From: Syntrophotalea acetylenica
Lineage (GTDB): Bacteria > Desulfobacterota > Desulfuromonadia > Desulfuromonadales > Syntrophotaleaceae
NCBI RefSeq assembly: GCF_001888165.1
Contig: NZ_CP015455.1
Span: forward strand, 2,288,001-2,352,000
Direction of reading: 5' to 3'
DNA: 64,000 bases
The notes under the pieces were generated by a model, which saw only the letters and a program-made list of their open reading frames with translations, was not told the DNA's origin and made no database searches. The stretch's first letter is position 1. Each line of letters starts with the position of its first letter. Shown one piece after another: positions 4,468 to 33,239 of the stretch. Both the position numbers and the translations under genes were made by a program.

Positions 4468-4820
4468 TGAACGCATTTGGGCCATATATCAGACAGCGCC
4501 GCGAGGAGCTGTTTCAGGATGACAGGAGCTTTTCTCTCCGACAGGTTGCCGGACGTGTCGGCATTGAACCTGCGTACTTAAGCAAGATTGAACGGGGCGA
4601 TTTTGCTCCCCCTTCTGAGGATGTCATACGAAAGCTTGCGCACGAACTTGGAGAGAATGCGGATATCCTTCTGGCGCTTGCAGGTAAGGTTTCCAGGGAT
4701 CTGATGGAGATCATTGTCCAGCGGCCAAAGCTGGTTGCGGAGCTTTTGAGACAAATCAAAGAGATGCCCGATCATGCGGTGCTACGCGTGGTCCGGGAAG
4801 TCAAGGACGGAGACTGGTAG
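4467..4820 (+). CDS. XRE-family HTH transcriptional regulator
   Basis: A 117-residue Cro/CI-type protein. Residues about 7-62 form the helix-turn-helix: SLRQVAGRVGIEPAYLSKIE is a textbook XRE HTH core, followed by LAHELGENADILLALAGKV. The C-terminal half is a helical region of unknown role. It probably represses its own promoter through the palindrome overlapping its start, and may control the gene that follows 17 bp later. Pairing of a small XRE protein with one downstream effector gene is common in accessory modules; a toxin-antitoxin-like arrangement is possible but nothing in the partner points to a known toxin. Confidence 0.85.
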   Translation: MNAFGPYIRQRREELFQDDRSFSLRQVAGRVGIEPAYLSKIERGDFAPPSEDVIRKLAHELGENADILLALAGKVSRDLMEIIVQRPKLVAELLRQIKEMPDHAVLRVVREVKDGDW

Positions 4821-4837
4821 CGGACAGGGAGGAAACC

Positions 4838-5413: not shown

Positions 5414-5788
5414 ACCAGAGCGTTTGCGAGGAAAGCGCCACTATGGGGCTCGCTCCAGGCGGGTTAATGCATCAGGAAATTTTTGAGGATGAATACGGGA
5501 TCGAGGTTTGGGATGCGACAGAGATGGCCCGTTGTTTTGTTCATCTCGCCAATAGCGAGCAGTATCTGGACATAACTGGGCATGTTCCGCCCACCGAACC
5601 TCCGACAGCGAAACAATACACCAATGCTGGAATGCCTTGGTTCGATTATTACGCAGCCGATCAAAAAGCCCTGCAAGGAGCCAAGGCCTTAGCAGAACTG
5701 GACAGCATCGCCGCAAAGGTGGTCAAGTATGGGAAAAAATTTCTTAAGGGGAATGACCCTGTCAATCCAACGCGAATCGTTTCTGATC
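5414..5788 (+). pseudogene. C-terminal part of the same split gene, interrupted by IS3
   Basis: Frame with MGLAPGGLMHQEIFEDEYG, RCFVHLANSEQYLDITGHVP and PWFDYYAADQ, which reads as the second half of the preceding protein. The ATG at 5443 may allow separate translation. At 5788 the frame enters the left terminal repeat of the IS3 element. Joining 5788 directly to 7017 gives an open continuation of 12 codons (DPSFFRAKRACE) and a stop at 7049-7051, whose last base is the A of an ATG at 7051. The IS therefore seems to have landed near the 3' end of this gene. Confidence 0.55.
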
Positions 5789-7722: not shown

Positions 7723-8614
7723 CGGCTCCCGGGCTGAAATCGCTAGTGGTGATGATCAGGCCTTGCTCGTGCGCTCCGAGGCTGCCGCGCACCTGCTGCA
7801 CGACCGGAGCCTGGATGTTGTTCTTGAGCTTCCACTTTTTGACTTGGACAGCCATCTTGATGCGGACCACGTCACCCACCACCAGGGTGCCCCGAACATC
7901 GATGCCGCCGTCGCCACTAAGTTTGGTCACCTCGACCATCTCGAAACCCATCTCCGCCAGCAACTGCGAGATAAGCTCCTCGAACTCGCCGGGCTTCATC
8001 GCCAGCAGACGTTCACGCAGGGCCTTTCGAACTTGGTGGTTGTGTTGCTCGATCTGGAACGCCAGCCCGCGACCCATCCATTGGCTCAGGCCCACATAGC
8101 CACGGCCGTGCTGAACGAAGCGGGGCCGCTCACCGCGTTTCTGCTGGCGTTTGATCTCGGTAATCACCTGGGCATACATGGTGGCCTCGGGCGTTTTTCC
8201 GCCGGTTACCAGCCAGCCTTTTTGCAGGGCCTTCTCAGTGATTTCCTTGTAGTGCATCGGCTTCTTGCCGCCGAACTCCTCGAGCACCTTCTGAGCGCAA
8301 TCGGTGAAGGAGAACCCCGCATTTGTAGGATGAGGTTTTGGAGCCTCTTGGACGGTCGCAGGAATCGGCGCAGCGCCGCTCGATATTTTAGTGGAATCCC
8401 GAAGCGCGAAGGTCTGAGGGCCAACCTTTACAAAGGTCGATTTGTCACCATTTTTCTTGATGTCCGAATACAGACTGGCGCTCACGGTGGCTTCAGGCGT
8501 CTTGCCATCAGAGGTCCAGAGCCCAGCAGCGATGATCTGCTCAGCAATTGCTTTAGCGTGCAGCGGGGTTTTTGCCTTTTTCAGCACCTCAGTGGCGGCA
8601 GCCTTCACGGACAT
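7559..8614 (-). CDS. mrr: Mrr-type restriction endonuclease with two HARE-HTH domains
   Basis: A 351-residue protein. Residues about 1-72 and 101-178 are two copies of a HARE-HTH domain; each contains GKTPEAT and an EIK or DIK motif. Residues about 200-320 form the Mrr nuclease domain: F211-E212, D239 in GDGGID, and Q257-V-K259, the expected PD-(D/E)XK-like active site. Mrr enzymes cut modified DNA. The start ATG directly follows the stop of the upstream gene (TGAATG), and GAGGAGG supplies the SD, so it is translated with the YgjP-like peptidase and the type I system. The two HARE domains may read DNA methylation (inference). Confidence 0.9.
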   Translation of the reverse strand: MSVKAAATEVLKKAKTPLHAKAIAEQIIAAGLWTSDGKTPEATVSASLYSDIKKNGDKSTFVKVGPQTFALRDSTKISSGAAPIPATVQEAPKPHPTNAGFSFTDCAQKVLEEFGGKKPMHYKEITEKALQKGWLVTGGKTPEATMYAQVITEIKRQQKRGERPRFVQHGRGYVGLSQWMGRGLAFQIEQHNHQVRKALRERLLAMKPGEFEELISQLLAEMGFEMVEVTKLSGDGGIDVRGTLVVGDVVRIKMAVQVKKWKLKNNIQAPVVQQVRGSLGAHEQGLIITTSDFSPGAVKEAVQPDKTPIALMNGEQLVMLLMEHGIGVHRSTPDLFEIDEDALVTGEGKFG

Positions 8615-12435: not shown

Positions 12436-13733
12436 GAGTGGACCTCCGTCTTTTCCAATAACGGCGTCACCCGTTTTTTGCCGGTGAGTAGGTCTTGCAT
12501 CAAGGCGGTTTTGAGGGATCTGAGCTTGTTGACACTACCTTTTATACTTTCAAATCGCGCATCAGCTGATTGAAGCCGGTTATTAATCGCTATTTGCTCT
12601 TCAATCGACGGCCAAGGAAAAAGCAAAGCGTTTAGTATCGGGCCATTTACAAGATCTCTTCCACCAGAGTTGGATGTCTTTCTTAGCTGTTCTACAATCT
12701 TTGAATTGAAAGCGATATTTCTGTATAAAAACTCAGGGGATGCAAGCTTTTCATTAAGAGATATGCGCATCAAATTGGATGAAATTATCCAGCCCTGACG
12801 TTCTGAATCAATTACGAGTGAACGACCAATATCAGCAACCCTTGAAAAAACTATATCGCCCTCCTCGACACTGAACCCTTTCAATCTGTCAGTAGTTTTC
12901 TCATCAACAAAAAGCAGTTCGGAATCAATTATTAGCCCTCCACCAAGTGAGCCAATAGTCAAAACAGGAGTCCCATATTCAACCCAGTGCTTTGTGTTCA
13001 GATCAGACCCAAAAGGTCCTGTCCTTAAATAAGAACGTGATCGAGAACCATATTTACTAATTGGTGCAATATCCCACTCCACCGGAATTCGCCCCAGGGG
13101 GGAATCCTTGAACTCATGGGTTTCTTCGGAGCGAAGATTTCCATGCTCATCAATACCCCGGGTGAGAAGGTCCTGCATCAGACCGGTCTTGATGCGCTGC
13201 TGCTTGGCAATCAAGCTTTCCGTCTGCTCAATGGCCTGATCGACCTTGGAAAGGACTTCGGCGATTTTGGATTGTTCGGGTTTTGATTTTGGGAATTGTA
13301 TCTTTATGAACGGAAGCTGAATGTTAGATAAAGCGATCTGGGTCGATCCCTCGGCATAGCGATCTTTTTGCCTCTCAAAAAAATCTGAACTTAAATACTG
13401 TGTTAAATAAACAGTGTCAATTTGTTCAGCTTGAATTCCACAAAAACCTGTTGAAAGAATTGCTTGATCACGCAAATATTGAGATGTGCTCAACACTTTA
13501 TGCGTTTCACGCATCCTCGCAAACCAAGCAGTATTTGGTTGTGGTTGCAGATTTGCCCGAGATGGACGCGAACGATAAGTTATTTCTTCTTCAATACTGG
13601 TTATTTTGTTGCCATCAACTGAACTCGTTGATAAATAATCCTTCGTACCAGTAAATGAAGTTATACCCGTACTTTGTGGTTGAAAATATTCTGTATCGCC
13701 GAGGTTAGTCTGTATCCAATTTTCAGTATTCAT
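12432..13733 (-). CDS. hsdS: Type I restriction enzyme, S (specificity) subunit
   Basis: A 433-residue subunit with two target-recognition domains separated by a helical spacer. The spacer and C-terminal conserved helices are visible as [20 protein letters not shown] (about 151-170) with [11 protein letters not shown], and the matching distal copy [11 protein letters not shown] with [14 protein letters not shown]. The second domain starts near GRIPVEWD. It directs the HsdM/HsdR complex to a bipartite sequence, which cannot be read from the protein alone. It overlaps hsdM and hsdR by 4 bp at each end. GC content falls noticeably in the recognition domains, as is usual for exchanged S domains. 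Confidence 0.93.
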
Positions 13734-17997: not shown

Positions 17998-19342
17998 AAC
18001 GCTTGTTCACCTGGGCACCGGGGTCAACATGGACCAGCCCGGCAAGATCGTCCCGATTGCCCTGCCGGACAGCTACCGCAAGCGGCATGTCTTCGTCTTC
18101 GGAACCACCGGAGTCGGCAAGACCCGCCTTGCGGAAATGATGATCGAGCAGGATATCCACGCCGGGAAAAGCGTCGTTTTTCTCGATCCGAAAGGCGATC
18201 AGCAGATCTTCACCAAGATTTTCGATATAGCCCGGCACTGCGACCGGGAAGACGAGATGTTGCTGGTCACTCCGGTCTTTCCCGAATACTCCGCTGTCAT
18301 CGACCCCCTCGCCTACTACTTCATGCCCGATGAACTGGTGGGCCATATCGTCAGCGGCATCAAGGGCGGCAGGGAGCCATTCTACCGCAACATTGCCAAG
18401 GAAATCACCTCGGCAGTCATCATGGGCAACATTCTTCTCGCGCGGGAAGAAGGCCGCGTGCCGACCCAGAACCTCGACGCCATCCGCCAGGCCATCCGCC
18501 GCAGTTCCCTGGAATCCATGATCCAGTCCCTGAATCGCATCGACGATCCCGAAGCGCAATCGGTGGCCGGTGTTATACAGGACATTCTGACGTCCCCCCA
18601 GGACTACTACGCCAAGGTCTCCTCCACCCTCCGCACTTGCCTAAATGAGCTATCCAGCGGCAACATCGGCCAGATCATCGGCAAGGCCGACTCCAACAGG
18701 TTTATGGAACGACTGGAAGCCGGGAAGCGCGTCATCCTGGTCGTCCACACCGGTTCGATGATCACCCGCGAGGCCGGGGAAACCCTGGGCCGCGTCATCC
18801 TCTCCATGATTCAATCCTTCGTGGGCCGGGTATACCTCTCCGGACGGCAAAAGGTCAAACCCGGATTGTCCATCTATATCGACGAGGCGCAAAGCCTCTT
18901 CTATCAGGGCGTGGAGGACCTGTTCGCCAAGGCCGGGTCGGCGGATGTGATGGTCCATGCCTTCGCCCAGTCGGTGAATCAGCTCTACGCCGCCGTGGGC
19001 GAGGAATTCGCCAAGTCCATTCTCGACAACACCAACACCAAGATCTTCATGCGCTGCTCGGATGCCGAAACCTCCGAATACGTCGTGAATCATTTCGGAA
19101 CGAAGAAAGTCCTCAACAGCATCTACAGCCAGGCCCAGATCACCACGCGTGAGATCGAGGAAGACGTGTTGCGGGTCAACGACGTCCTGAGCCTTCAGCC
19201 GCGCGACTTTTTCATGATGACCTACAGCGGACGCTACCGGGGCCGAACGGCGCAAGTGGCCGACCCCAACCTGGAAATCCGTTTCCCCGACGCGCCGGCC
19301 GCCATCCGCGCCAACAGGGAGGAGACGCCCGATGCGCATTGA
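17966..19342 (+). CDS. Type IV coupling protein-like ATPase (TraD/VirD4/TraG family)
   Basis: A 458-residue P-loop ATPase. Walker A is GTTGVGKT (46-53), a DPKGDQQ motif follows at 74-80, and Walker B is LSIYIDEAQS (D306, E307). These are typical of coupling proteins that deliver relaxase-DNA to the type IV secretion channel. It starts at a TTG with AAGGAG 7 nt upstream, overlapping the previous gene by 32 bp. The protein is short and no N-terminal membrane anchor is seen, so it resembles the soluble part of TraD; the anchor might be supplied by the next protein, which has one. It may alternatively be a TraD-related DNA pump of another kind. Confidence 0.85.
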   Translation: MFGLSKGKNPETLVHLGTGVNMDQPGKIVPIALPDSYRKRHVFVFGTTGVGKTRLAEMMIEQDIHAGKSVVFLDPKGDQQIFTKIFDIARHCDREDEMLLVTPVFPEYSAVIDPLAYYFMPDELVGHIVSGIKGGREPFYRNIAKEITSAVIMGNILLAREEGRVPTQNLDAIRQAIRRSSLESMIQSLNRIDDPEAQSVAGVIQDILTSPQDYYAKVSSTLRTCLNELSSGNIGQIIGKADSNRFMERLEAGKRVILVVHTGSMITREAGETLGRVILSMIQSFVGRVYLSGRQKVKPGLSIYIDEAQSLFYQGVEDLFAKAGSADVMVHAFAQSVNQLYAAVGEEFAKSILDNTNTKIFMRCSDAETSEYVVNHFGTKKVLNSIYSQAQITTREIEEDVLRVNDVLSLQPRDFFMMTYSGRYRGRTAQVADPNLEIRFPDAPAAIRANREETPDAH

Positions 19343-23519: not shown

Positions 23520-23900
23520 ATGGCGAAGGATGACGCAAGCAACGGCAAGAAGGATTATCGGCAGGCTCGTCGGGAACGCAAGCTGGAGATGGCTCAGCGG
23601 GACGACATGGAAGTGATCCCCCGCAGGGCCCTGGAAACCAACGATTCCATCCGGCTGCTCACCGCCAATGACTTCATCATCAACCGCTTGCGAAATCAGC
23701 TCGGCCGCCCCAACGGCGTGCCGGTGAATCAGGCGGTCCGGTTTCTGGAGCGCAACGAGCAGTTGCGGCAGGAAATGAACCGCCTGAATGCCGAGATGTG
23801 CGAGGCGATGGGCATGTCTTACCGGGCGCCCCGGGGTTTCCAAAACCCGCTTGAAAAGGCAGTGGACAAAAAATCCGGGGCAACACCTGCCGTCAGTTAG
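23520..23900 (+). CDS. Unknown small basic protein after traH
   Basis: A 126-residue hydrophilic protein, not recognised. The N-terminus is strongly charged (KKDYRQARRERKLEMAQRDD), and the middle predicts helices (LTANDFIINRLRNQLG, RFLERNEQLRQEMNRLNAEM), possibly a coiled coil. GGGAGCAGAGGC precedes the ATG. It takes the place where traG lies in F-type systems but is not TraG. Possibly a DNA- or membrane-associated accessory protein; no firm evidence. Confidence 0.6.
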   Translation: MAKDDASNGKKDYRQARRERKLEMAQRDDMEVIPRRALETNDSIRLLTANDFIINRLRNQLGRPNGVPVNQAVRFLERNEQLRQEMNRLNAEMCEAMGMSYRAPRGFQNPLEKAVDKKSGATPAVS

Positions 23901-24277
23901 CTCCTGGCATGCTCAGACAGACAGTGGAGCCGACTTTCCCTTGACATCCTGAGCCGATTTTTTAGAATACAATCATTCATCCACACTATTTTTATAGTGA
24001 CTCCTTGCTCTTTCGAGCAGGACTGAAATTTTAGGGAAAGCCCCTAATCTCAAAGCCCCAGGCATGGGACGTAAACCGCAGGGGAACCGGATTGCCCGGA
24101 GACCTGATCTGCACGCAACAGCAGCCCCCCTGCTTTAACCCGCTTTCCCGGGTTCAACCTCGAAGAGCGGCTGACAGATTATAGTGCACGCGATTCTCGA
24201 CGTGTGCCGGAATACCGAATTAACCAGACCCGTTTTGGCATTCTGCCGGAAGGGGTTTTTTGTTGCTGAAAACCAAC
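23901..24277. other. Intergenic region before ssb
   Basis: About 375 bp without a gene. Visible structures: CACTAT/ATAGTG hairpin (23982-23997), TTGCTC/GAGCAG hairpin with a TTTC loop near 24004-24019, and a G/C-rich stretch 24050-24110. These may belong to a leader or to an origin-like region of the element. I cannot assign them to a known RNA family. Confidence 0.4.
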
Positions 24278-24357
24278 CATCCCGGACGGGAGGAGACTTC
24301 TTCCCGCGCAGGGATGACTCCTTCTTGCCGGGGAAACCCAAGAGAGGAGAAGAAGTC
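24278..24357 (+). promoter_or_regulatory. Structured leader copy 1 (before ssb)
   Basis: CGGGAGGA pairs with TCTTCCCG (one G-U) as a first hairpin. The segment GACTTCTTC within it is the exact complement of GAAGAAGTC, which lies just before the ATG behind GAGGAG. The layout matches the other leaders of this region: G-rich arm, first hairpin, second complement, SD. Confidence 0.55.
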
Positions 24358-24738
24358 ATGCTCAACAAGGTTCAACTGATTGGAAGGCTTGGAACCGATC
24401 CGGACTACCGCCATACCGCTTCCGGAACGCCCGTGACGACTTTTTCACTGGCAACCTCGGAGCGGTTCAAGGGCAAGGACGGAGCGGCCAGGGAACTCAC
24501 CGAATGGCACAACATCGTCGTTTGGCGCAGCCTGGCCGATACCTGCCACAACTATCTGACCAAGGGCAAGCTCGTCTACGTCGATGGGAAAATTCGCAAG
24601 CGGAAATATCAGGACAAGGACGGGCAGGACCGCTACATCTCGGAGATCGTGGCGGATCAGGTGAGGTTTCTGGAAAAGGTCGAGGACCTGTGCTGGTTCG
24701 ACGACAAGCCCGCGCCGCAAAGTGAAGATCCCATCTAA
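24358..24738 (+). CDS. ssb: Single-stranded DNA-binding protein
   Basis: A 126-residue SSB with the OB-fold motifs LNKVQLIGRLGTDPDYRHTA, TTFSLATSE, TEWHNIVVWRSLAD and YLTKGKLVYVDGKIRKRKYQ. The usual acidic C-terminal tip (DDDIPF-type) is replaced by a short end APQSEDPI, so interaction with partner proteins may differ from the host SSB. It heads a recombination block (ssb, bet, exonuclease) like that of SXT/R391 elements and would protect single strands during transfer and annealing. The start is the ATG after GAGGAG; an upstream in-frame start at 24184 would run through the structured leader. Confidence 0.93.
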   Translation: MLNKVQLIGRLGTDPDYRHTASGTPVTTFSLATSERFKGKDGAARELTEWHNIVVWRSLADTCHNYLTKGKLVYVDGKIRKRKYQDKDGQDRYISEIVADQVRFLEKVEDLCWFDDKPAPQSEDPI

Positions 24739-24759
24739 CGACGAATAACGGCCAACCAA

Positions 24760-24852
24760 CATCCCGCCACCCCACAGGGGAGACAAAAATCTCCCTCACC
24801 GGGGGCATTCTGTCTCCCCTGCTTGGGCTTCAGCCCGAGAAAGGAGACAGAG
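24760..24852 (+). promoter_or_regulatory. Structured leader copy 2 (before bet)
   Basis: GGGGAGACA (24777-24785) can pair with nearby TCTCCCT or, perfectly, with TGTCTCCCC (24811-24819). The same TGTCTCC can instead pair with GGAGACA (24843-24849), which contains the Shine-Dalgarno of bet. A small hairpin GGGCTTCAGCCC lies between. Three mutually exclusive pairings suggest a switch. Confidence 0.7.
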
Positions 24853-25893
24853 ATGATCGCGCAAACAACGCAACTCGTACCTCACACCCACAGGCCACCG
24901 GCTTCCGCGCTCCTGTTCGACGAGGAAAAAGTCAACCTCATCAAACGGACCATCTGCAAGGGAGCCACCAATGACGAATTGCAACTGTTTGTCAACCAGT
25001 GCAAGCGCACCGGCCTCGACCCCTTTGCCCGCCAGATCCACGCCATCAAACGATGGGATTCCAGTCAGAAGCGAGAAGTCATGTCCATCCAGACATCTAT
25101 CGACGGCTTCCGGCTGATTGCCGAGCGTACCGGGAAATATTCCGGCCAGCTTGGACCCTACTGGTGCGGCAAGGACGGTAATTGGGTGGAAGTCTGGCTC
25201 GATGAAGGCACTCCTCCGCTCGCTGCGAAGGTTGGCGTTCTTCGAACGGATTTTCAGGAACCCTTGTGGGCCGTCGCCAGGTTTTCCACCTATGCCCAGA
25301 GAACCAAGGAAGGTCGACTGACCCGCTTCTGGGCGTCCATGCCGGATCTGATGATTGCCAAGGTAGCAGAGGCACTGGCGATTCGCCGGGCTTTTCCCCA
25401 GGAACTTTCGGGACTGTATGTCCAGGAAGAGATGGACCAGGCCGAAAATATGCTGGAGGAAGCGCCCGTCAACATGGAGCCATCCCCGCAAAGTGACAGC
25501 CACGAAGAACCCGAGCCAGGTGCGGAGGCGGAAATCCTTCTATCCAAGGGACAGGTTTCCACCTTGTCGAACATGATCCGGGAAACCGGAACGGACCTCG
25601 CGAAGTTTCTCAAATACTTCGGCGTTTCTGCTCTCACCACCCTCCCCGCTTGCCGCTACCAGGAAGCAATGGAAACCCTCGGGCAGAAAAAAGCCGGTAG
25701 AAAAACCAATCTGGATGTACCCAAAAGCCTGGTCGCCATCATGTCGGCCTTGCGGGCGCATAACATCGAAGCGCGACTGGATGAAGAAAGCCGGACAATC
25801 CATGCGGCATCCTACGAACACCGGAATCTGCTCAAGTCATTGGGCTTCCAGTGGGACGGAAAAGCCAAGTCCTGGTTTCTGACGGCCAGCTAA
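24853..25893 (+). CDS. bet: RecT/Bet-family single-strand annealing protein with extra C-terminal domain
   Basis: A 346-residue protein. Residues about 15-185 form the Bet domain: [51 protein letters not shown] and [20 protein letters not shown]. It anneals complementary single strands, working with SSB and the exonuclease encoded nearby. Phage beta proteins have about 260 residues; here a linker follows, then a helical segment ([20 protein letters not shown]) and a last ~60 residues ([20 protein letters not shown] and onward) that I do not recognise. The start at 24853 follows AAAGGAGACAGAG. Confidence 0.92.
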
Positions 25894-25913
25894 CCCAAAC
25901 CATGAGCAGCAAC

Positions 25914-26001
25914 ACCCACCCCACAGGGGAGACAACTATCTCCCTGCAAGGGGCGTCTTGTCTTCTCCGTGGGTCATCGACCACCAAAAGGAGGCAAGAA
26001 C
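25914..26001 (+). promoter_or_regulatory. Structured leader copy 3
   Basis: Begins CACCCCACAGGGGAGACAA, almost identical to copy 2, then TCTCCCTGCAAGGGGCG and TTGTCTTCTCC. The SD segment GGAGGCAA can pair with TTGTCT plus CC. A short hairpin GGTCATCGACC precedes the SD, as in copy 6. Confidence 0.7.
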
Positions 26002-26121
26002 ATGAACGCATTCATTGAAAATACCCTTGATACCCTGTTCCACATCGACGTTGGAAACGTTGCTACCGGCGTGGTAATCGGCTCGCCTCTGGTTGCGGTT
26101 CTCGCTTTCTTCCTCGCTTGA
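26002..26121 (+). CDS. Small hydrophobic protein of 39 residues
   Basis: A very short gene with its own full leader and a strong SD (AAAAGGAGGCAAGAAC). The first half is polar (MNAFIENTLDTLFHIDVG); the second half is one membrane-spanning stretch (GVVIGSPLVAVLAFFLA). Its TGA overlaps an ATG at 26121. SXT-like elements also carry a small gene between bet and exo. Function unknown; a membrane-associated accessory peptide is the simplest reading. Confidence 0.6.
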   Translation: MNAFIENTLDTLFHIDVGNVATGVVIGSPLVAVLAFFLA

Positions 26122-26141
26122 TGTTAAAAGGAGGGGACAGA

Positions 26142-26582
26142 GTGAACCGACTGGCCATCAAGGAGTATATTTGCATGCACTTCAACCCCGATTTGTCCGC
26201 CATGGACCGGCTCAACATCATTTCCCGGCTGGTAAGCCAGGACGAGGTTGCTGTCAGTCTTCTGGAAAAACTCCTCTCCACTGCCGAAGGCTATTTTGGC
26301 AAGGTCGTCCTTATGGAGGGCCAGATGAAGACAGCCAGGCTGCGGCTGGAAGGCGAGGAATTGCGGGAATTGACCGAGGTGCTGGACAAGAACCGGAAAC
26401 TGGCCCATGAAGCCTTGATTTCCGATCTCCACATTTTCAACAGGTATCTGCTGAAAAACTACGAAGACGTCCCGACAGGCGGTCTTTACAGCAAGGACCC
26501 CGATTCCATCCGTGATCGCGTGGCGATTGCCGATTGGGCAGGGGAACTGCTGGCCGCGCTGTTCAACGGGCGCCGCAGGTAA
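26142..26582 (+). CDS. Unknown helical protein between bet and the exonuclease
   Basis: A 146-residue, mostly helical protein. A GTG start at 26142 is chosen because AAAAGGAGGGG lies at the right distance; an ATG at 26121 overlaps the previous stop. Visible segments are AIKEYICMHFNPDLSAMDRL, LEKLLSTAEGYFGKVVLMEG and LRELTEVLDKNRKLAHEALI. No enzyme motif is seen. It lies within the recombination block, so a partner of Bet or the exonuclease is possible. It is possibly one of the DUFs carried by SXT-type elements, but I cannot name it. Confidence 0.65.
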   Translation: MNRLAIKEYICMHFNPDLSAMDRLNIISRLVSQDEVAVSLLEKLLSTAEGYFGKVVLMEGQMKTARLRLEGEELRELTEVLDKNRKLAHEALISDLHIFNRYLLKNYEDVPTGGLYSKDPDSIRDRVAIADWAGELLAALFNGRRR

Positions 26583-26620
26583 TTCGGACCACAGCTCGCA
26601 AAAACATCCAAGCCACACTT

Positions 26621-26694
26621 CAACCCCTTGGGGGGCGGTACATGCCCCGGAGGGGTTTTCTGTATCCGCCCCCTTTTTTTAAAGGAGACGGAGC
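26621..26694 (+). promoter_or_regulatory. Structured leader copy 4 (before the exonuclease)
   Basis: GGGGC..GCCCC forms the first hairpin; GGGGGCGG with ACA can pair with TGTATCCGCCCCC further on. An outer stem AACCCC/GGGGTT also forms. Then comes TTTTTTT and AAAGGAGACGGAGC before the ATG. The T-tract after the second arm makes an attenuation-type outcome possible here. Confidence 0.6.
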
Positions 26695-27660
26695 ATGAGC
26701 AAACTTCAAGCCTTCCTCGAATACGCCCTGATTCAAAAAAGCACGCAGGATTCCCGGCATCTCGGGGACCGCAGCAAATATATCGGCGCATCCGATATAG
26801 CCGGCTGCCCCCGCAAGGCTGTCATGTCCCGCCTGCACCCTGTCGAGCAGAACGCCGCCACACTGATGCGTTTCGCACGAGGGCACGCAGCCGAGGGCCT
26901 GGTGGACAGCATCTTTCGCGCGGGAGGACAGAACCCCAAGCGTGAAGTGGAAGTACGCCATCCCAAGTACCCCTGGCTTCGCTGCCATATCGACTTTCTG
27001 TTTGTCGGGAAGAACGGCCGGGTGCACATCATGGAACTGAAGACCACCAACGGCATTCCCGAGGCGCCCTATGCCTCCTGGGTAAACCAGATTCATGTCC
27101 AGATGGGTTTGCTGGAAATGAGCTTTCCGGACGCGGAGATCGGCGGGAGCATACTCGCTGTCGATCTGAACGCCGGCCAGTGGCATGAGTTCAATAACTA
27201 CAAACCGAATGAAATTCTTTTTGAACACCTGGTCGAAAAGGGGCAAGTCATAAAATCCGCCCTCGATGCTACGAAGGCGGACGCTGTTGCCCCGGAACCC
27301 GGCCTGCTGTGCGGATATTGCGATTATTGCGGGACCTGCCCGGCGCATCTCGATGGCGCTTGCGACGTTCCCGAGGAGGTCGAAATCCTGGCACAGCAAT
27401 ATCTGGAAACAAGCCAGGCCAAAAAAGAGTGCGACAACCGCCTGAAAAAGCTCAAAAGCGACATTTATGGCTTTACCGGCACCCGCTTCAAGGGCGCGTC
27501 CGACGCGCTGTTTATCGCTGCGTTCGAAGTCGGACCTTCCGAAGCCGTGGATATTAAGGCGCTCAGAAGCAGGTATCCGGAGGTTTACGAAGAGGTGAAG
27601 TCCGAACGGGCCGGTTACATTAGGCTCGATATCAAGCCGAGAAACGCCAAAGCCGCCTGA
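26695..27660 (+). CDS. Cas4/RecB-like PD-(D/E)XK exonuclease with Fe-S-type cysteines
   Basis: A 321-residue nuclease. The RecB-family core is visible: H63 and E67 in ARGHAAEGLVDS, D100 in RCHIDFLF, and E114-L-K116 in IMELKTTN. Cysteine C38 (AGCPRKA) and the cluster C206, C209, C212, C215 (LLCGYCDYCGTCPAH) resemble the 4Fe-4S ligands of Cas4 and AddB. It should resect DNA ends so that Bet can anneal, like lambda Exo with Beta. In SXT the corresponding exo gene also follows bet. A helical C-terminal region (SQAKKECDNRLKKLKSDIYG) may bind DNA. Confidence 0.85.
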   Translation: MSKLQAFLEYALIQKSTQDSRHLGDRSKYIGASDIAGCPRKAVMSRLHPVEQNAATLMRFARGHAAEGLVDSIFRAGGQNPKREVEVRHPKYPWLRCHIDFLFVGKNGRVHIMELKTTNGIPEAPYASWVNQIHVQMGLLEMSFPDAEIGGSILAVDLNAGQWHEFNNYKPNEILFEHLVEKGQVIKSALDATKADAVAPEPGLLCGYCDYCGTCPAHLDGACDVPEEVEILAQQYLETSQAKKECDNRLKKLKSDIYGFTGTRFKGASDALFIAAFEVGPSEAVDIKALRSRYPEVYEEVKSERAGYIRLDIKPRNAKAA

Positions 27661-27989
27661 CGCTGCCAACCTTAAACAGGCTGCGAACCACCGCCCTGGC
27701 GAGGGACTTCCTTTTCAGGAGGGCGTTTTGCGCCCCGGGAAGGAAACAGCCATTCTTTGGATGGAAAGCACCTCGATTAAGCTTTGAATTAAATCAAAAC
27801 CAAGGCCCCTTATTGCTTTTTGTGGTCCTGTTTTTTGTATTCGCAGCTGGAATTATTGCCCATGATAGGTGGGTGACAAGGCATCACAAGCGTCAGAATT
27901 AAATAATCAGAAATAGGCGTTGTCCGCACGGACCTTTGCCAAACAACAGGGGTTTGTCCTTCAACAAGGGGCAGACCTTTTTTATGATC
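27661..27989. other. Intergenic region with a possible decayed leader
   Basis: About 330 bp. CGCCCT (27692-27697) and AGGGCG (27720-27725) plus GGAAGGAAACA look like a weak copy of the leader family, but only an 8-codon frame follows (ATG at 27761). The right part is AT-rich. It may be the scar of a lost gene. Confidence 0.35.
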
Positions 27990-28069
27990 CGACCCCGATC
28001 CGGGGGAGACCTTCTCCCTTGGCGGGGAACGTGTCTTCCCCGGTCGATCATCGACAAGGAGAAGACACG
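27990..28069 (+). promoter_or_regulatory. Structured leader copy 6 (before the CobS-like gene)
   Basis: GGGAGA-CCT-TCTCCC is a perfect first hairpin. GGGGGAGAC (28002-28010) can instead pair with GTGTCTTCCCC (28031-28041). GTGTCTTC is also the exact complement of GAAGACAC (28061-28068), which lies between SD AAGGAG and the ATG. A hairpin CGATCATCG separates them. Confidence 0.7.
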
Positions 28070-29002
28070 ATGACTCCCAAATCCTTCAGCATCGCAAAAA
28101 CCTTCGATCTGGAAGGAATCCCCGAAAAGCTCACGGTACGGGGATACACGGAACGGACCTCGTTCGTTCCTGCTGTGGACCCGGCCTACCGCTTTCGCAA
28201 GGAACTCCTCTCGGATCTGCTGGCCTGGCACATGCTCGGCGGTACCGAAGGTCTTTACCTGACCGGACCCACCGGCTCCGGGAAATCGACCCTTATCACC
28301 CAGGCCGCCGCTCGCCTGAACATTTCCGTGCAGCGGGTCACGGCCCACAGCCGATTGGAAACGCCTGAACTGATTGGCCACTACGCGCTGGTGAACGGCA
28401 GCATGTCCTTCGTGGACGGGCCGTTGACCATCGCCATGCGCCAAGGACACTGGTTCCTTCTGGATGAGATCGACCTTCTCGATCCGGCAACCGCTGCCGG
28501 CCTCAACGGGATTGTCGAGGGGGCGCCCCTTGTGATCCCGGAAAAGGGCGGTGAAATGGTTTTCCCGGCTCTCGGTTTCGCGTTCATCGCGACCGGCAAC
28601 ACGGCAGGCTCCGGTGACCAGACCGGACTTTACCAGGGAACCCTGCGCCAGAACCTGGCCTTTCTGGACCGTTTCTGGATGGTCGAGGTCGGCTATCCGA
28701 CAGCGGAACAGGAAACCATGATCCTGGCTCAGGCGGCCCCCACAATCCCCGAAGAGATCAGGAAGGGAATGATCAGCTACGCCGCCGAGGTGCGAAAGCT
28801 CTTTCTTGGCGGACAGATCGAAGTCACCCTCTCCACCCGGACTCTGGTCCGGTGGGCGAAGCTCGCGGAGTTCTTCCGGCCCATGGCGGCCCAGGGGATA
28901 AACCCGCTGCACCACGCCCTGGAACGCGCCCTGTCCTTCAGGGCCGAGCCGGAGAGCCGCAGCGCCCTGTCGGAAATTGTCCAGCGGATCTTCGGAGGGT
29001 GA
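28070..29002 (+). CDS. MoxR/CobS-like AAA+ ATPase
   Basis: A 310-residue AAA+ protein. Walker A is GPTGSGKST (66-74), Walker B WFLLDEIDLLD (about 127-137), and the sensor-1 region AFIATGNTAG. The N-terminus (LEGIPEKLTVRGYTERTSFV) resembles CobS. CobS-type ATPases pair with VWA proteins: in cobalamin synthesis CobS/CobT load cobalt, elsewhere MoxR/VWA pairs act as chaperones. A VWA partner lies three genes downstream and no cobalamin genes are near, so an element-specific remodelling role is more likely. SXT also carries a cobS-like gene near its recombination genes. The start follows AAGGAGAAGACACG. Confidence 0.9.
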   Translation: MTPKSFSIAKTFDLEGIPEKLTVRGYTERTSFVPAVDPAYRFRKELLSDLLAWHMLGGTEGLYLTGPTGSGKSTLITQAAARLNISVQRVTAHSRLETPELIGHYALVNGSMSFVDGPLTIAMRQGHWFLLDEIDLLDPATAAGLNGIVEGAPLVIPEKGGEMVFPALGFAFIATGNTAGSGDQTGLYQGTLRQNLAFLDRFWMVEVGYPTAEQETMILAQAAPTIPEEIRKGMISYAAEVRKLFLGGQIEVTLSTRTLVRWAKLAEFFRPMAAQGINPLHHALERALSFRAEPESRSALSEIVQRIFGG

Positions 29003-29003
29003 C

Positions 29004-29381
29004 ATGCAAATACCGCAAAACACGATCTGCGGCGTCTGGATGCGCTGTCCCAACGCCCATGGAGGCAAGGACTGGCTGGGGTTTCTGACCGGTGAGCATG
29101 TGCTCTCCTGCTGGGGACGTACCGGGCAGATCCGCCAGTCCAGGGTGCTCAGCAACCATCCCTCCCGAAATATGTTAAAACGCAAAATCAACGAGAAGCT
29201 GGCCAAAGGCTACGACATCATCGCCGTAACGTATGGCGCTGTCTGGTCCAGGTCGGCAGATTTTCAACCCGGGCTGATACCTGATCCGCCCGGCCCAGCG
29301 CAAAACGCTCCACCCAAGGAAAACCGGCAGGCTCAGGCCGTGTCCCGATGGATAGAAGGCAGCAGCCAAGCCTGGTTCTAA
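29004..29381 (+). CDS. WGR-domain-like small protein
   Basis: A 125-residue protein. The core VLSCWGRTGQIRQSRVL followed by LKRKINEKLAKGYDII resembles the WGR domain, which in PARPs and MolR-type proteins binds nucleic acid ends. The start ATG lies 2 bp after the CobS-like gene with SD GGAGGG; the two are co-translated. The last 45 residues are proline-rich and look unstructured. The WGR assignment is made by eye from W-G-R and the K-x-x-GY spacing. A second small WGR-like gene lies at 44.8 kb. Confidence 0.5.
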   Translation: MQIPQNTICGVWMRCPNAHGGKDWLGFLTGEHVLSCWGRTGQIRQSRVLSNHPSRNMLKRKINEKLAKGYDIIAVTYGAVWSRSADFQPGLIPDPPGPAQNAPPKENRQAQAVSRWIEGSSQAWF

Positions 29382-29383
29382 CC

Positions 29384-29467
29384 GAAACCCCGCTGCGGGA
29401 AAGACGCTCCCCGCTTTGGGGGCCTGGTGTCTTTCCCGCAGTCCGTTGACGACAAGGAGAAGCCACC
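29384..29467 (+). promoter_or_regulatory. Structured leader copy 7 (before DUF3150)
   Basis: GCGGGAAAGAC (29395-29405) pairs perfectly over 11 bp with GTCTTTCCCGC (29429-29439), or alternatively GCGGG with nearby CCCGC. SD AAGGAGAAGCCACC can pair with GGTGTCTT with one mismatch. Confidence 0.7.
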
Positions 29468-30385
29468 ATGTTCGATCTGCTCCAGAAACTGGTTTGCATC
29501 AGCCTCGACATTCATATCTGGAGCGGCCAGAAAAAGCTTCAGGCCGCCGATCTCAATCTCACAGCCGGGGAAATCCCCCCGGAAAAACTCGCCTCGCTCG
29601 GCATCAAGAAGATCTGCAACCCGAGCCTGCTTAAACCTTTCCAAACACTTCGCCGTCGTGCGGAACGCATCTGTGAAGCCTCGGGCGTCCGTTTTCTGGG
29701 TGGCTTCGCCGTTCCCGAAGACAAAGCTCAGGCGGTAGGCGCTGAGCTGGAAAAGGTCGCGGCGGAATTCGAGGCGGAAAAATCCGCATTTCTGAGGAAC
29801 TACCAGCAGTCCGTGTCGGACTGGATGGACACCATCCCGGATCGCTGGCGGTTGATGGTCGCACAGGCCGTCGAATTGCCGGAGCACGTTTCCGAGCGGC
29901 TCTCCTTCGCCTTCCAGACCTATCAGGTTCAGAGCGTTGAGGGCTTGAACGGTGGCCTTGAGCAGTCGCTCCAGGGATTGGGTGGCCAACTGTTTCAGGA
30001 AATCGCGCAGGCCGCCAGGCAATCGTGGGAAGCTTCCTTTCGAGGGAAGACGCAGGCCGGGCAGAAGGCCCTGCGCCCCATTCGAGCCATTCTGGATAAG
30101 GCCAAGGGTCTGTCCTTTCTGGACGGCAGCCTGGCCCCGGTTATCGACGGCATCGAGGCTGAACTGGCCGGATTGCCAAGGTCTGGTCGGCTCGAAGGCC
30201 GTGACTTTCACACCCTTGTGGGCATCCTGAACACCCTGACCAACCTCGACGGGATTATGCTGCCCAGTGAGCCTGGTCTGGAGGAATGGGAGTCGCATGG
30301 CGAAACGGAAAGTTCCGAACACGAGATCAAGGAGATGATTCAGCCAGCGGTTCAGCCCGTAACGATGCCAGCAACCTGGTTTTGA
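29468..30385 (+). CDS. DUF3150-family protein
   Basis: A 305-residue helical protein matching the DUF3150 pattern as I know it: LDIHIWSGQKKLQAADL, IPPEKLASLGIKKICNPS, LRRRAERICEASGVRFLGGF and FLRNYQQSVSDWMDTIPDRW. DUF3150 genes occur between CobS-like AAA+ and VWA genes in integrative elements, and so here. It may bridge the ATPase and the VWA protein. No catalytic motif is visible. The start follows AAGGAGAAGCCACC. Confidence 0.8.
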   Translation: MFDLLQKLVCISLDIHIWSGQKKLQAADLNLTAGEIPPEKLASLGIKKICNPSLLKPFQTLRRRAERICEASGVRFLGGFAVPEDKAQAVGAELEKVAAEFEAEKSAFLRNYQQSVSDWMDTIPDRWRLMVAQAVELPEHVSERLSFAFQTYQVQSVEGLNGGLEQSLQGLGGQLFQEIAQAARQSWEASFRGKTQAGQKALRPIRAILDKAKGLSFLDGSLAPVIDGIEAELAGLPRSGRLEGRDFHTLVGILNTLTNLDGIMLPSEPGLEEWESHGETESSEHEIKEMIQPAVQPVTMPATWF

Positions 30386-30390
30386 TCCTT

Positions 30391-30453
30391 CCCCCGCCGT
30401 TCCGGGGCGTTTTTTGAGACGTCCCGAACGGGGGGCGTCTTGCCGGAGGAACC
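30391..30453 (+). promoter_or_regulatory. Structured leader copy 8 (before the VWA gene)
   Basis: CGGGGCGT pairs with ACGTCCCG (one G-U) as first hairpin; AGACGTCCCG can instead pair with CGGGGGGCGTCT immediately downstream. SD GGAGGA follows directly. Shortest copy of the family. Confidence 0.6.
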
Positions 30454-32172
30454 ATGAGCCAACACCTATTCATCAAATCCCTGCCCGTGGTCGCCATGGC
30501 GATGGGCAACAAAATGGGCGTCGAGGTCGTCATGCAGGGGAGCCAGGCCAGAACCGATGGCAACACCATCTACTTGCCGGCCCTTCCCGAAGGTGACAAG
30601 TCCCTTTGGATTCTGGCCCGTGGGTACATCGATCACGAAGCCGGGCATATACGCCATACCGATTTTTCTCACGTGGGGAGCACACCGATCCACAGGGCGC
30701 TCACCAACATTCTTGAAGACATCCGCATTGAACTGGAGATGGGCGGGTCCTATCCCGGTTGCGCGGTAAACCTACGAAACCTGGCGAATCATCTTGCGCA
30801 GGAAGGAGCCTTCACCCCGGAAGCCAATCGGCCAGAACAGCTTCTGCCGGCCTGGATATTGACCGCGTGTCGAAGCCGAGTGCTGAAACAGGAAGCCCTG
30901 GAGCCCATTGCCCGGAAAGCACGCCAGGAGCTGGAAGGACTTCTTGGCCCTTGCCTCGTTGGGAAAATCGAGAAGGTGCTGACAGGTGTGAAAGCCCTGC
31001 AATCAACCGGGCAGGCAGCAACCATGGCGGAGGAGATTCTTCAATTGCTCCGCCAGGAACAGGATGCGGCCGATAAGCAACAGAAAAATCAGGCTCAAGA
31101 ACAAAAAAGCGAGGCCGATGGCCAGAGTGACCAAGGGCAAGAAGGGCAATGCCCTCCCCCGTCGAAATTGGACGGAGACAGCAAGCAGGATGCCTCCAGT
31201 GGCTCCCCTTCCTTCCAGGATCATGATGCCTTGTCCGGTTCGGACCGGGACGGCGGAGAGAAGGCGAATACAGCCTCCGACCCCAACCCTTCCCGATGCC
31301 GCAAGGCACTGAGAAAAATCCTCGATGAAGATCCAGGAGCGTTCGGAGACATCGGCACCCATTGCGCCGCAAAACTGAGCGCCACTTCCCAAAACAGCGA
31401 GGAGCATGCCCTGACCGGGATTTACCCCGGAGAAACCCCTGCCCATGAACTCCTTTCCGGGCCACCGCCCGACCTTCATCAGGTTCGGGCTGAAACGGTT
31501 GGCCTGCGTTCCAGGCTGACAAGGCTGGTGCAGGCCTCCAGGCTCAAAAGGTCCGGTGCGGGCAGATGGGGGCGCCTGGTGGATCACCGTGTTCTGCATC
31601 GCCTGCCCACCAGCGATCCGCGCATCTTCAGGCGCAAGGAGGAAAGAAGCGCCATCCACACTGCGGTTCTCATCCTTCTGGATCGTTCGGGATCAATGGA
31701 TGGTCCAAGGATCGGGCTGGCAAAAAAGGCGGTCCTGGCGTTGGCCGACGCCTTGGGAACCATTCCCGGCGTCAGTGTGGCGACAGCGGCTTTCCCCGGA
31801 ACGGATAATCGGGTGGTTCCTTTGACCCGGTTCGGCCAGTCGGTCGCCAGGTCGAAAACCGGCTATGGCATCGGCGCAAGCGGAGGTACGCCTCTGGTTC
31901 CGGCCTTGGGCTGGGCCCGCGCTCGAATGGCCGTTCGGCGGGAATCCAGGAAAATTGTCCTGGTTGCAACCGATGGCCAGCCAAGAAATCCGGCAACCGT
32001 CAAGGCCATGATCCGGAAACTCGAAGCCGAAGGCATTGAGATGATGGGACTGGGCATTCTGGACAACGGTGTAACCGGACGCTATTTCCGTAAGAATCAA
32101 ACCCTAAAGAAGCTTTCGGAACTGCCGGAAACGGTCTTTGGGATGCTCAGGGACGCCCTGACGGAAAAGTAA
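30454..32172 (+). CDS. CobT-like VWA-domain protein with HExxH motif
   Basis: A 572-residue protein. The N-terminal domain contains DHEAGHIRHTDF (HEAGH at 61-65), as in CobT-like proteins. A long low-complexity, Gln/Asp/Ser-rich linker lies at about 205-290, and a C-terminal VWA domain has the MIDAS motif DRSGSMDG (from residue 410) and VLVATDGQPRNP. It is the likely partner of the CobS-like ATPase: AAA+/VWA pairs remodel or load metals into targets. Whether HEAGH is an active zinc peptidase site is unknown; it is also the conserved N-terminal feature of this VWA subfamily. Its leader and close neighbours tie it to the element's DNA-processing block. Confidence 0.87.
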   Translation: MSQHLFIKSLPVVAMAMGNKMGVEVVMQGSQARTDGNTIYLPALPEGDKSLWILARGYIDHEAGHIRHTDFSHVGSTPIHRALTNILEDIRIELEMGGSYPGCAVNLRNLANHLAQEGAFTPEANRPEQLLPAWILTACRSRVLKQEALEPIARKARQELEGLLGPCLVGKIEKVLTGVKALQSTGQAATMAEEILQLLRQEQDAADKQQKNQAQEQKSEADGQSDQGQEGQCPPPSKLDGDSKQDASSGSPSFQDHDALSGSDRDGGEKANTASDPNPSRCRKALRKILDEDPGAFGDIGTHCAAKLSATSQNSEEHALTGIYPGETPAHELLSGPPPDLHQVRAETVGLRSRLTRLVQASRLKRSGAGRWGRLVDHRVLHRLPTSDPRIFRRKEERSAIHTAVLILLDRSGSMDGPRIGLAKKAVLALADALGTIPGVSVATAAFPGTDNRVVPLTRFGQSVARSKTGYGIGASGGTPLVPALGWARARMAVRRESRKIVLVATDGQPRNPATVKAMIRKLEAEGIEMMGLGILDNGVTGRYFRKNQTLKKLSELPETVFGMLRDALTEK

Positions 32173-32224
32173 CTGAAGTTTGGCGTGGGGATTATTGGAT
32201 AAGTAATCAAGGAAGGAGACAATA

Positions 32225-32383
32225 ATGGTAACCAGATGCAATGCTAAAACCGAAGTCTACTCCAGGGTGTGCGGATTTTTCCGCCCCGTCCAGCAATGGA
32301 ACAGGGGCAAGCGGGAGGAGTTTAAGGAGAGGCGGGAGTTTGTCGTCAACCACTCTGACCTTGAAGCTTCCTCGGAGAATTGA
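32225..32383 (+). CDS. 52-residue protein resembling the C-terminus of class III ribonucleotide reductase
   Basis: A short gene with a strong SD (AAGGAAGGAGACAATA). TEVYSRVCGFFRPVQQWNRG followed by KREEFKERREFV closely follows the C-terminal segment of anaerobic ribonucleoside-triphosphate reductase NrdD, around the region just before the glycyl-radical and zinc-binding end. All other NrdD parts are missing. It could be a free-standing accessory peptide for NrdD or a decoy that modulates it; free NrdD-tail-like proteins are not something I can place in a named family. Upstream is the VWA gene, downstream radC. Confidence 0.6.
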   Translation: MVTRCNAKTEVYSRVCGFFRPVQQWNRGKREEFKERREFVVNHSDLEASSEN

Positions 32384-32543
32384 ATCCTGGTCAAAAAAGT
32401 TCATCCCAAAGTCGTCCTGGAGGAGACCACCGTCATGCCCCCCCTGAGGACGCTAGAAGTCGCCCCCATGCGGGGGTCGGAATGAAACGTCACTTGGAAA
32501 AACGACCCGGAAACCGGTCGCCACATGGATTTTAAATTAAAAT

Positions 32544-32612
32544 CACCCCAACACGGGGGCTGACACAGCCCCCGGAAGGGGCCCATGTCTGCCCCCCACA
32601 GGAGGACAAGAC
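32544..32612 (+). promoter_or_regulatory. Structured leader copy 9 (before radC)
   Basis: GGGGGCTG-ACA-CAGCCCCC is a perfect 8-bp first hairpin (32555-32573). GGGGGCTGACA can instead pair with TGTCTGCCCCC (32586-32596). CATGTCT (32584-32590) is the exact complement of AGACATG (32609-32615), which includes the radC start codon. SD is AGGAGGA. Confidence 0.7.
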
Positions 32613-33107
32613 ATGGAAGCCATAAACTTCTTCGGCCTTGAGCCGGAACAGAAAACCAAACGAATCCGCATCCGTTCGATTCGGGCCATCTTTAAAAACG
32701 AGGTGGTCAGGGAGAAAGCTCCGGCCTGGGTGACAAAAACCTGCAAAAGTCCGGAAAACACCTTCGAACTTTTCCGTGACCTTGGCAGGGAATCCAAGGA
32801 GCACTTTGTAGCGCTGCACCTGGACACCAAGAACCGGATCATTTGCTACGACACGGTGTCCATCGGTTCGCTTAGCGCGAGCATTGTTCACCCGAGAGAG
32901 GTGTTCAAATCGGCGCTGCTGTCTTCGGCGGCAGCGGTCATCTTCCTGCACAACCACCCTTCGGGGGATACGACACCAAGCCGGGAGGATATCGAGATCT
33001 CCAAACGGCTCAAGCAAGCCGGCGACCTTCTTGGCATCCGGGTGCTGGATCATTTGATTGTCGGTGAGAAGGGATTCTATTCCTTCGCGGACACCGGCAA
33101 TTTCTGA
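32613..33107 (+). CDS. radC: RadC-like JAB/MPN-domain protein
   Basis: A 164-residue protein with the JAB metal motif FLHNHPSGDTTPS (H113, H115, S117, D119) and the family ending HLIVGEKGFYSFADTGNF. The N-terminal helix-hairpin-helix of long RadC proteins is absent; short forms like this are common in plasmids and integrative elements such as SXT. Despite the name, a role in repair is not established. It has its own structured leader, like the other DNA-processing genes here. Confidence 0.92.
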   Translation: MEAINFFGLEPEQKTKRIRIRSIRAIFKNEVVREKAPAWVTKTCKSPENTFELFRDLGRESKEHFVALHLDTKNRIICYDTVSIGSLSASIVHPREVFKSALLSSAAAVIFLHNHPSGDTTPSREDIEISKRLKQAGDLLGIRVLDHLIVGEKGFYSFADTGNF

Positions 33108-33114
33108 GAAATCC

Positions 33115-33182
33115 GACCATCGCGTTTTCTTTTTGGCTGAGGCTTTGGCTTCAGGTTTGGAGAATGGCGCGATGGTCTTTTT
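33115..33182 (+). terminator. Long-loop inverted repeat with T-tract after radC
   Basis: GACCATCGCG (33115-33124) and CGCGATGGTC (33168-33177) form a perfect 10-bp stem, followed by TTTTT. A loop of about 43 nt is unusually long for a terminator, though an inner GGCT..AGCC-like fold may shorten it. Confidence 0.5.
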
Positions 33183-33239
33183 CGTGGAAGACATAGTACT
33201 GCTATCCTCTTTGCCCTACCCCTGTGTTAAAGGAGAAAA

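Follow-up and report, generated by a model that had tools for sequence, protein, structure and literature searches.

Why would most genes of a recombination block carry a structured RNA of their own directly in front of the start codon? The question is raised by a stretch of 64,000 nucleotides (nt) of Syntrophotalea acetylenica DNA (RefSeq contig NZ_CP015455.1, positions 2,288,001 to 2,352,000, forward strand), referred to below as the window and numbered from its first base. In it, F-type conjugation genes (coupling protein, TraF, TraH) lie upstream of a block that encodes SSB, RecT/Bet, a 39-residue protein, DUF3232, an exonuclease, a CbbQ/CobS-like AAA ATPase, DUF3150, a VWA/CobT-like protein and RadC. 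An earlier sequence-only reading of this DNA had pointed to leaders in front of eight of these genes. We propose, with a probability of roughly 0.7, that the leaders are translational attenuators with OFF as their default, repeated from gene to gene and mostly placed between genes of one transcript.

Leaders in front of the recombination genes

The eight leaders stand where the sequence-only reading had placed them. Each folds better than nearly all of its 200 dinucleotide shuffles (z from -2.3 to -5.8, with 0 to 4 shuffles equal), and a covariance model of the family, R2, run unfiltered on both strands of the 64 kb, ranks them as the top eight of 35 matches (E 1.1e-13 to 0.0092). Five of them (ssb, exo, DUF3150, VWA and radC) are outside the 150 rows from which R2 was built, and three are inside. 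R2 also has an antisense match on the minus strand at 32402–32476 (E 0.022), a place with no good sense match.

Seven leaders, those of ssb, RecT/bet, the 39-residue open reading frame (ORF), exo, the CbbQ/CobS-like gene, DUF3150 and radC, have the full design and are 72–89 nt long. From 5' to 3' they consist of a CCC strand (P1), a G-rich arm A, its near partner B, a GGG strand (P1'), a pyrimidine arm C, a variable loop and the segment D, which comprises the Shine-Dalgarno (SD) sequence and the start region, running toward the ATG. P1 and P1' form the outer stem, A pairs with B or C, and C pairs with A or D, never both. In the bet leader, the arms are GGGGAGACA (A), TCTCCC (B), CTGTCTCCCC (C) and AAGGAGACAG (D); A and D have a GGAG core in common. 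The alternative pairings of the G-rich arm that had been proposed, A:B versus A:C, are supported, and the arms acquire their meaning from a pairing absent from that proposal, because C also pairs with the SD.

All leaders are on the plus strand. The ssb leader occupies 24277–24360 (A 24288–24300, B 24298–24305, C 24314–24326, D, from SD to ATG, 24346–24360; R2 E 5.8e-6) and the RecT/bet leader 24767–24855 (A 24775–24785, B 24790–24795, C 24810–24821, D 24841–24852). They are followed by the leaders of the 39-residue gene at 25916–26004 (A 25922–25934, B 25939–25944, C 25957–25971, D 25988–25999), the exonuclease gene at 26620–26697 (A 26630–26642, B 26643–26648, C 26660–26673, D 26681–26697; R2 E 9.5e-6) and the CbbQ/CobS-like AAA ATPase gene at 27990–28072 (A 28000–28011, B 28012–28018, C 28030–28043, D 28056–28072). 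The DUF3150 leader is found at 29385–29470 (A 29392–29406, B 29407–29414, C 29426–29441, D 29454–29467; R2 E 1.6e-5) and the radC leader at 32544–32615 (A 32554–32565, B 32567–32574, C 32584–32597, D 32600–32615; R2 E 4.6e-4).

We scored each leader for the complete triple, demanding that C pair both upstream with A and with the SD and start region D. This score exceeds all 60 shuffles in seven of the eight leaders, so the claim of one design for all of them holds for these seven and fails for the VWA leader, which is weak and divergent. Two starts that have no leader and stand directly behind another gene, those of DUF3232 and orf29004, fail the triple score as well (17 and 21 of 60 shuffles equal). 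Taken alone, the score is unspecific: 19 sites in the window reach 45, seven of them leaders, and one minus-strand site that is not a leader reaches 58.9.

The VWA/CobT-like leader (30394–30456; R2 E 0.0092) forms hairpins but no A/C/D triple. Inspected by eye, it has a different design, with a GGGGCG/CGTCCC-like hairpin and an SD that is not obviously hidden; in relatives, also by eye, its GGGGGGCGTC strand could pair with the same pyrimidine arm.

Covariation of the three helices

The pairings were compared in a swap test, which asks whether an arm pairs better with its cognate partner than with one taken from a different leader (3000 permutations). The first set consisted of the 150 rows of alignment A5, reduced to 69 leaders at <75% identity (51 at <65%). 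The second, A6, comprised 150 of 152 matches, mostly from gamma-, alpha- and betaproteobacterial elements; six antisense rows were dropped and the remaining 144 reduced to 106. Nine rows are common to the sets of 69 and 106, and the models behind the alignments did not include A:C.

All three helices covary in both sets. Among the 69 leaders, z was 14.4 for A:C, 13.1 for C:D and 9.2 for A:B (0 of 3000 permutations each), with 0.5 for the control pairing B:D; among the 106, the corresponding values were 19.2, 17.3, 16.6 and 1.5. They remained at 18.3, 16.4, 15.3 and 1.5 when the ten rows present in A5 were removed (n = 96), and at 15.8, 14.6, 11.9 and 0.2 when every locus of the 69 was removed (n = 70). 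When partners were permuted within elements, none of 3000 permutations reached the observed value for any of the three helices, the exception being A:B at 65% identity (29 of 3000). The covariation that the sequence-only reading had described from a few copies, and by whose absence it would have fallen, is therefore present in A:B, A:C and C:D alike.

The portion of C that lies outside the SD complement is informative about A:C. It pairs with the 5' (outer) part of A, with z of 10.0 in the 69, 5.6 in the 106 and 3.1 in the 70 (4 of 3000 permutations), and shows no specific pairing with D (z -0.1, 0.7 and 0.6). Since outer C pairs specifically with outer A and not with D, A:C appears to be selected in its own right, beyond mere mimicry of the SD.

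In column counts, P1, A:B and C:D were reached by 0 of 500 shuffles in every measure, but the alignments had been fitted to those helices. For A:C on A5, the covariation score and the number of paired cells beat 500 shuffles. G-U pairs are frequent (at one A:C pair, for instance, GC occurs 59 times and GU 57 times), which points to RNA of the sense strand.

We also considered an antisense RNA that pairs with the arms as a common signal; this is unlikely because A, C and D differ between the genes of one element while the pairing within each leader is kept.

Predicted folding

Computation directly yields the three helices with their covariation and mutual exclusion, and also the order in which they are predicted to form. 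The order was obtained from computed ensembles of the growing RNA at three stages: after P1', after C and at full length. After P1', A:B is favoured in 69/69 leaders of the first set and 106/106 of the second. RNA cut after C favours A:C (64/69 and 82/106), and the full leader favours C:D (65/69 and 90/106). All three stages occur in this order in 60/69 and 70/106 leaders. Across the 69, the fold with C:D (OFF) has a median stability advantage of 6.2 kcal/mol over that with A:C (ON); in six of the window leaders its advantage ranges from 3.7 to 13.6 kcal/mol.

Distribution of the leaders

The first covariance model, R1, was built from 20 leaders of Desulfuromonadia-type elements in a homogeneous alignment (A4), earlier MAFFT alignments (A1, A3) having misplaced P1/P2 between gene classes. 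It gave 480 matches at E<=1 across 98 loci (1.72 Mb; our loci L001–L013 and the short or duplicate L023, L033 and L087 were left out of the scan). Among the best 300 of the 480 there are 12 antisense matches, each overlapping a sense match. SXT-type loci, all outside the R1 training set, were matched with E from about 1e-6 to 1e-2. On the window's own genome, R1 has ten matches at E<=1: five fall on window leaders, one lies antisense across the bet leader, and the remaining four are at other places (E 0.2 to 1).

R2 was built from the 150 matches of A5. The search of other integrative elements that had been proposed along with the sequence-only reading recovered similar leaders in SXT/R391, IncC, Geobacter, Azospirillum and Pseudomonas elements. 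In pR997, which we take to be an SXT/R391-type element, leaders found by R2 at E<=0.01 end at eight annotated starts (an ORF at 3989, bet, an ORF at 5731, exo, ATPase, DUF3150, VWA and radC); the gene at 10001 reaches only E 6.4, and ssb and the primase-like gene at 13179 have no match. In an IncC plasmid, R2 at E<=0.05 matches before bet, exo, VWA and the gene at 18127, near ssb, and at 8305–8371, where no start is annotated; DUF3150 and the ATPase gene are without a match at that threshold. By eye and with the model, leaders of the same design were also found before genes in Geobacter anodireducens pSD, Pelobacter propionicus pPRO1, Azospirillum and Methylomonas, as well as pR997. Those of Allochromatium are weak (R2 E 0.033 for radC, 1.3 and 4.6 for DUF3150 and the ATPase gene).

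Within the order, 8 of 134 genomes have an R2 match at E<=0.001, namely seven that carry the DUF3150 block, plus G022 with a single match. The DUF3150 carriers G030, G039 and G091 are not among the matching genomes at this threshold, and in the DUF3150 neighbourhoods of G091 and G039 (L019 and L020, respectively) no leader was seen at the two starts inspected in each. R2 has matches in 29 of the 148 genomes that make up the family of a Pseudomonas fluorescens genome; of five downstream proteins from this family that were scanned, two belong to DUF3577 and three have no Pfam family. Two genomes of this family (G194 and G165) have 13 and 7 R2 matches each at E<=0.001, so that some chromosomes carry many copies, presumably in several elements. 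Two antisense R2 rows of the second set (L100, L101) have no sense partner.

The 69 non-redundant matches of A5 end at a start codon (67 ATG, 2 GTG), and behind each of them the frame stays open for 30 codons or more. In 63 of the 69, an upstream frame ends no more than 200 nt from the leader; in 49 of those 63, the gap is 0–29 nt, with a median of 17. Most leaders are thus intercistronic, which argues for translational control.

Mechanism and alternative explanations

Mutually exclusive helices, one of which is predicted to hide the SD, characterise translational attenuators, and the computed leaders have them. In the proposed ground state, P1 and the hairpin A:B would form upstream while C:D would hide the SD, together with the start codon in part of the leaders. 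The alternative fold A:C would consume C and free the SD. Since the polymerase releases A, B, C and D one after another, A:B is predicted to form first, then A:C, and then A:B together with C:D once the SD is out. In this element, C:D would block translation, A:C would be the ON state and the genes would share one transcript. Translation would then be set by the lifetime of A:C, either on nascent RNA or as held by a factor that recognises P1 and the G-rich hairpin. Taking OFF as the default is in line with the strong translational attenuator reported before bet of SXT, to which we return below.

Several results weigh against this reading. The VWA leader fails the triple score (53 of 60 shuffles equal it), the full folding order is not followed by 36 of the 106 leaders of the second set, and for the DUF3150 leader A:C is the predicted ground state, favoured by 7.9 kcal/mol. 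The SD is only partly hidden in some leaders, its unpaired probability being 0.51 for DUF3150, 0.25 for cobS and 0.26 for radC. At equilibrium, C:D overtakes A:C at a median of 8–9 nt before the end of the AUG; the SD would therefore be hidden almost as soon as it appears, expression would need a persisting A:C, and an ON window on nascent RNA would require slow refolding or a factor. P1 shows no covariation in the swap test (z 1.0) and some in column counts. Lastly, in the A:C column counts, 78 of 500 shuffles reach the observed number of doubly changed pairs and 71 of 500 that of pair types, and A:C slid by +1 has more doubly changed cells (80 versus 66). The A:C counts are the weaker evidence, perhaps mixed because the alignment was not fitted to A:C.

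The attenuator reading could be combined with a factor acting in trans, to which we give somewhat less than even odds. An element- or host-encoded protein would bind P1 and the G-rich hairpin, pick A:C or A:B plus C:D, and so turn the block on together. Such a protein would explain why A:C is kept, as the regulated state; the outer stem and the G-rich arm are the parts common to leaders across gene classes and phyla, and the leaders are repeated before most genes of one block. No factor has been identified, though none was searched for, and leaders also precede genes of other kinds, which makes a single element-specific protein not obvious.

A coupling device is unlikely. According to this explanation, the ribosome that finishes the upstream gene would remodel the leader, each gene following the translation of its predecessor, and the short distances to upstream frames given above would suit it. 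However, P1 sits about 20 nt past the stop codon, near or beyond the boundary of a ribosome terminating there, a spacing better suited to insulation; the ssb leader comes after a terminator and not after a gene; and DUF3232 and orf29004, which follow other genes directly, lack the leader triple. We regard it as improbable, too, that the leaders are simple hairpins hiding the SD, with A merely resembling the SD and A:C a by-product: the GGAG core common to A and D would suit them, but outer A pairs cognate-specifically with the portion of C not taken up by D, in both sets and, more weakly, in the separate 70. It is very improbable that the structures act as single-stranded DNA during transfer, for instance as entry promoters or protein sites, an idea raised for STAXI (Weinberg 2010, PMC2864571) that would fit leaders preceding DNA-processing genes in conjugative elements, since the matches run up to start codons and involve the SD, their frequent G-U pairs could not be kept by the other strand, and the antisense matches among the best 300 of R1 all overlie sense matches, those without a sense partner being L100, L101 and 32402–32476 with R2.

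Comparison with known RNAs

The radC motif is typically found near DNA-related genes of mobile elements, and the leaders share with it their position before radC and other DNA-processing genes. The suggestion that they are this motif or a relative is nevertheless not borne out, and we reject the identity: the scans are silent, and two true members of the motif found in our searches are unlike the leaders. The motif (RF01754) has a consensus of 149 positions (~150 nt), highly conserved sequence and different helices, as compared with the 72–89 nt of the leaders. At the gathering score (40 bits), RF01754 has no match in the window or in L014–L020, L024, L025, L027 and L029–L032, and even at E<=10 it has none in 23900–33200 of the window or in L014, L024 and L026. 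One match far below the cut-off (15.8 bits against 40) overlaps a leader in L029 (38511–38645 of the record). A search of 136 genomes of the order was silent, but its controls were silent as well.

Among 20 genomes or records searched, the two true members (110.8 and 105.9 bits; L120 and L124) both come from the genome with the Marinobacterium profundum locus L085, and weaker matches, below the cut-off, came from other records. At L124 (1501–1740), the true radC RNA is directly followed by a leader (R1 match 1661–1740, E 7.3e-4), and the gene behind that leader has a start resembling, by eye, those of DUF3577 genes. The two kinds of RNA can thus stand side by side.

A closer counterpart is the translational attenuator upstream of bet in SXT/R391 integrative and conjugative elements (ICEs), reportedly described by Garriss et al. 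in 2013 and known to us through a review. In that review, SXT bet is said to be highly transcribed while its expression is hindered, being held down by a strong translational attenuator upstream, which is also present in IncA/C plasmids (PMC4542580). The gene, the place and the block are the same as here, and R2 matches the bet leader of pR997 at 4767–4832, with bet starting at 4830 (E 7.9e-5), with no such bet leader among the R2 rows. Unlike the attenuator as given in the relevant section of the review, which names bet only (PMC4542580), the leaders described here precede most genes of the block, in several phyla, and have three helices that covary, A:C being incompatible with either of the others. 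Translational attenuators are a known kind of RNA, with the SXT bet member in print according to the review (PMC4542580).

More generally, the leaders share with attenuators and the expression platforms of riboswitches an anti-SD strand that is common to two helices; they differ in that copies are repeated gene by gene in one block and that no ligand domain has been identified. No Rfam riboswitch matched in the window. STAXI, which we assume to be included in the Rfam library scanned, had no match in the window (where a single tRNA was the only hit at the gathering score) or in 14 loci. It resembles the leaders in lying near DNA-processing genes such as ssb; the original description lists ssb, integrase, topoisomerase and antirestriction genes (Weinberg 2010, PMC2864571).

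Rfam 15 contains nothing that matches the leaders tested, and many such mobile-element leaders are therefore probably unannotated. In the literature, with subscription papers mostly outside our reach, we found no description of the leader family, its three-way covariation or its spread.

The entrance of the operon

Upstream of the ssb leader, the plus strand carries a sigma-70-like promoter (TTGACA-16-TAGAAT, 23941–23968; 11 of 12 positions), the core of a conserved structured 5' untranslated region without an Rfam match, here called the head RNA (23976–24136), and a conserved hairpin plus T run resembling an intrinsic terminator (24228–24261), which separates the head RNA from the ssb leader. 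The head RNA core is conserved in four related elements, with a mean column identity of 74% over the aligned region; it folds into several hairpins, and 13 of 40 predicted pairs have a compensatory change among five sequences. Its covariance model, R3, has hits at E<=2e-8 in 12 of 99 loci, five of them training sequences, with a thirteenth locus reaching only E 0.19; in the phylum, it matches 5 of 345 genomes. TTGAC is found 33–36 nt upstream of the head RNA in 14 of 15 copies, some of them nearly identical (in L058 the promoter box was not found by the script), and a terminator-like hairpin with a T run stands between head RNA and first leader in all 15 (14 by script, L017 by eye).

A terminator at the operon entrance implies control of read-through, by attenuation or by processive antitermination, for which the put type is a precedent; antitermination or riboswitch-like control by the head RNA is possible. 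Within 24207–24240, the bases TGCCGGAA, located upstream of the terminator, repeat its 3' arm and could pair with its 5' arm TTTTGGCA. This is possibly an antiterminator, not clearly kept in relatives as judged by eye.

A search for the head RNA core in viruses returned an exact 16-base core in 11 IMG/VR contigs, but the flanks are unlike the head RNA, and we discount these matches because one of this length can arise by chance in a collection such as IMG/VR.

The recombination block and its relatives

The ssb gene (24358–24738; Pfam SSB 1.2e-36) is followed on the plus strand by the gene for the RecT/Bet annealing protein (24853–25893; Pfam RecT 1.4e-30) and the 39-residue ORF (26002–26121), which has no Pfam family and is resembled by short ORFs in L015 (two) and L016. 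The exonuclease gene has no Pfam match and takes its name from lambda-exonuclease-like genes at the equivalent place in related records. Much of the block is also present in pR997, Allochromatium, Azospirillum, Methylomonas and IncC plasmids. In four elements whose DUF3150 proteins are 61–63% identical, leaders were found at most orthologous genes, their bases changed and their pairing kept. The exo gene of L016 follows another gene directly and has no leader, and no radC was found in two of the four elements, L015 and L017.

The gap between exo and cobS (27660–27985) is long. It contains a hairpin-rich stretch (27660–27760, fold z -0.9) and a terminator-like hairpin of 14 pairs (27948–27980), and perhaps marks a lost gene with remains of its leader. 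An ORF of 52 residues (32225–32383) matches anaerobic ribonucleotide reductase at its C-terminal end only (PF13597 positions 526–562 of 562, E 1.3e-9). Judged from this match, it may be a remnant or a free-standing glycyl-radical tail; among the loci searched, the tail has a match only in L018/L028 (one plasmid), within a long frame.

Implications

It is through the homologous recombination functions of such blocks that ICEs and IncC-type plasmids can undergo repair and reshuffling. A translational switch that is repeated and conserved in shape would explain why SXT bet is highly transcribed yet hindered, and this can be tested gene by gene. Copies that differ in sequence and keep the same three-way pairing logic are a natural experiment in the selection of RNA folding order.

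A tentative extension, which we consider doubtful, is an RNA programme of two tiers in several phyla, with the head RNA, a tier observed in Desulfuromonadia-type elements, gating the terminator and the bistable leaders serving each gene as a folding timer or as a switch for a shared factor. If it were true, ssb, the annealing protein, the exonuclease and RadC would be produced only during a brief phase of the transfer cycle.

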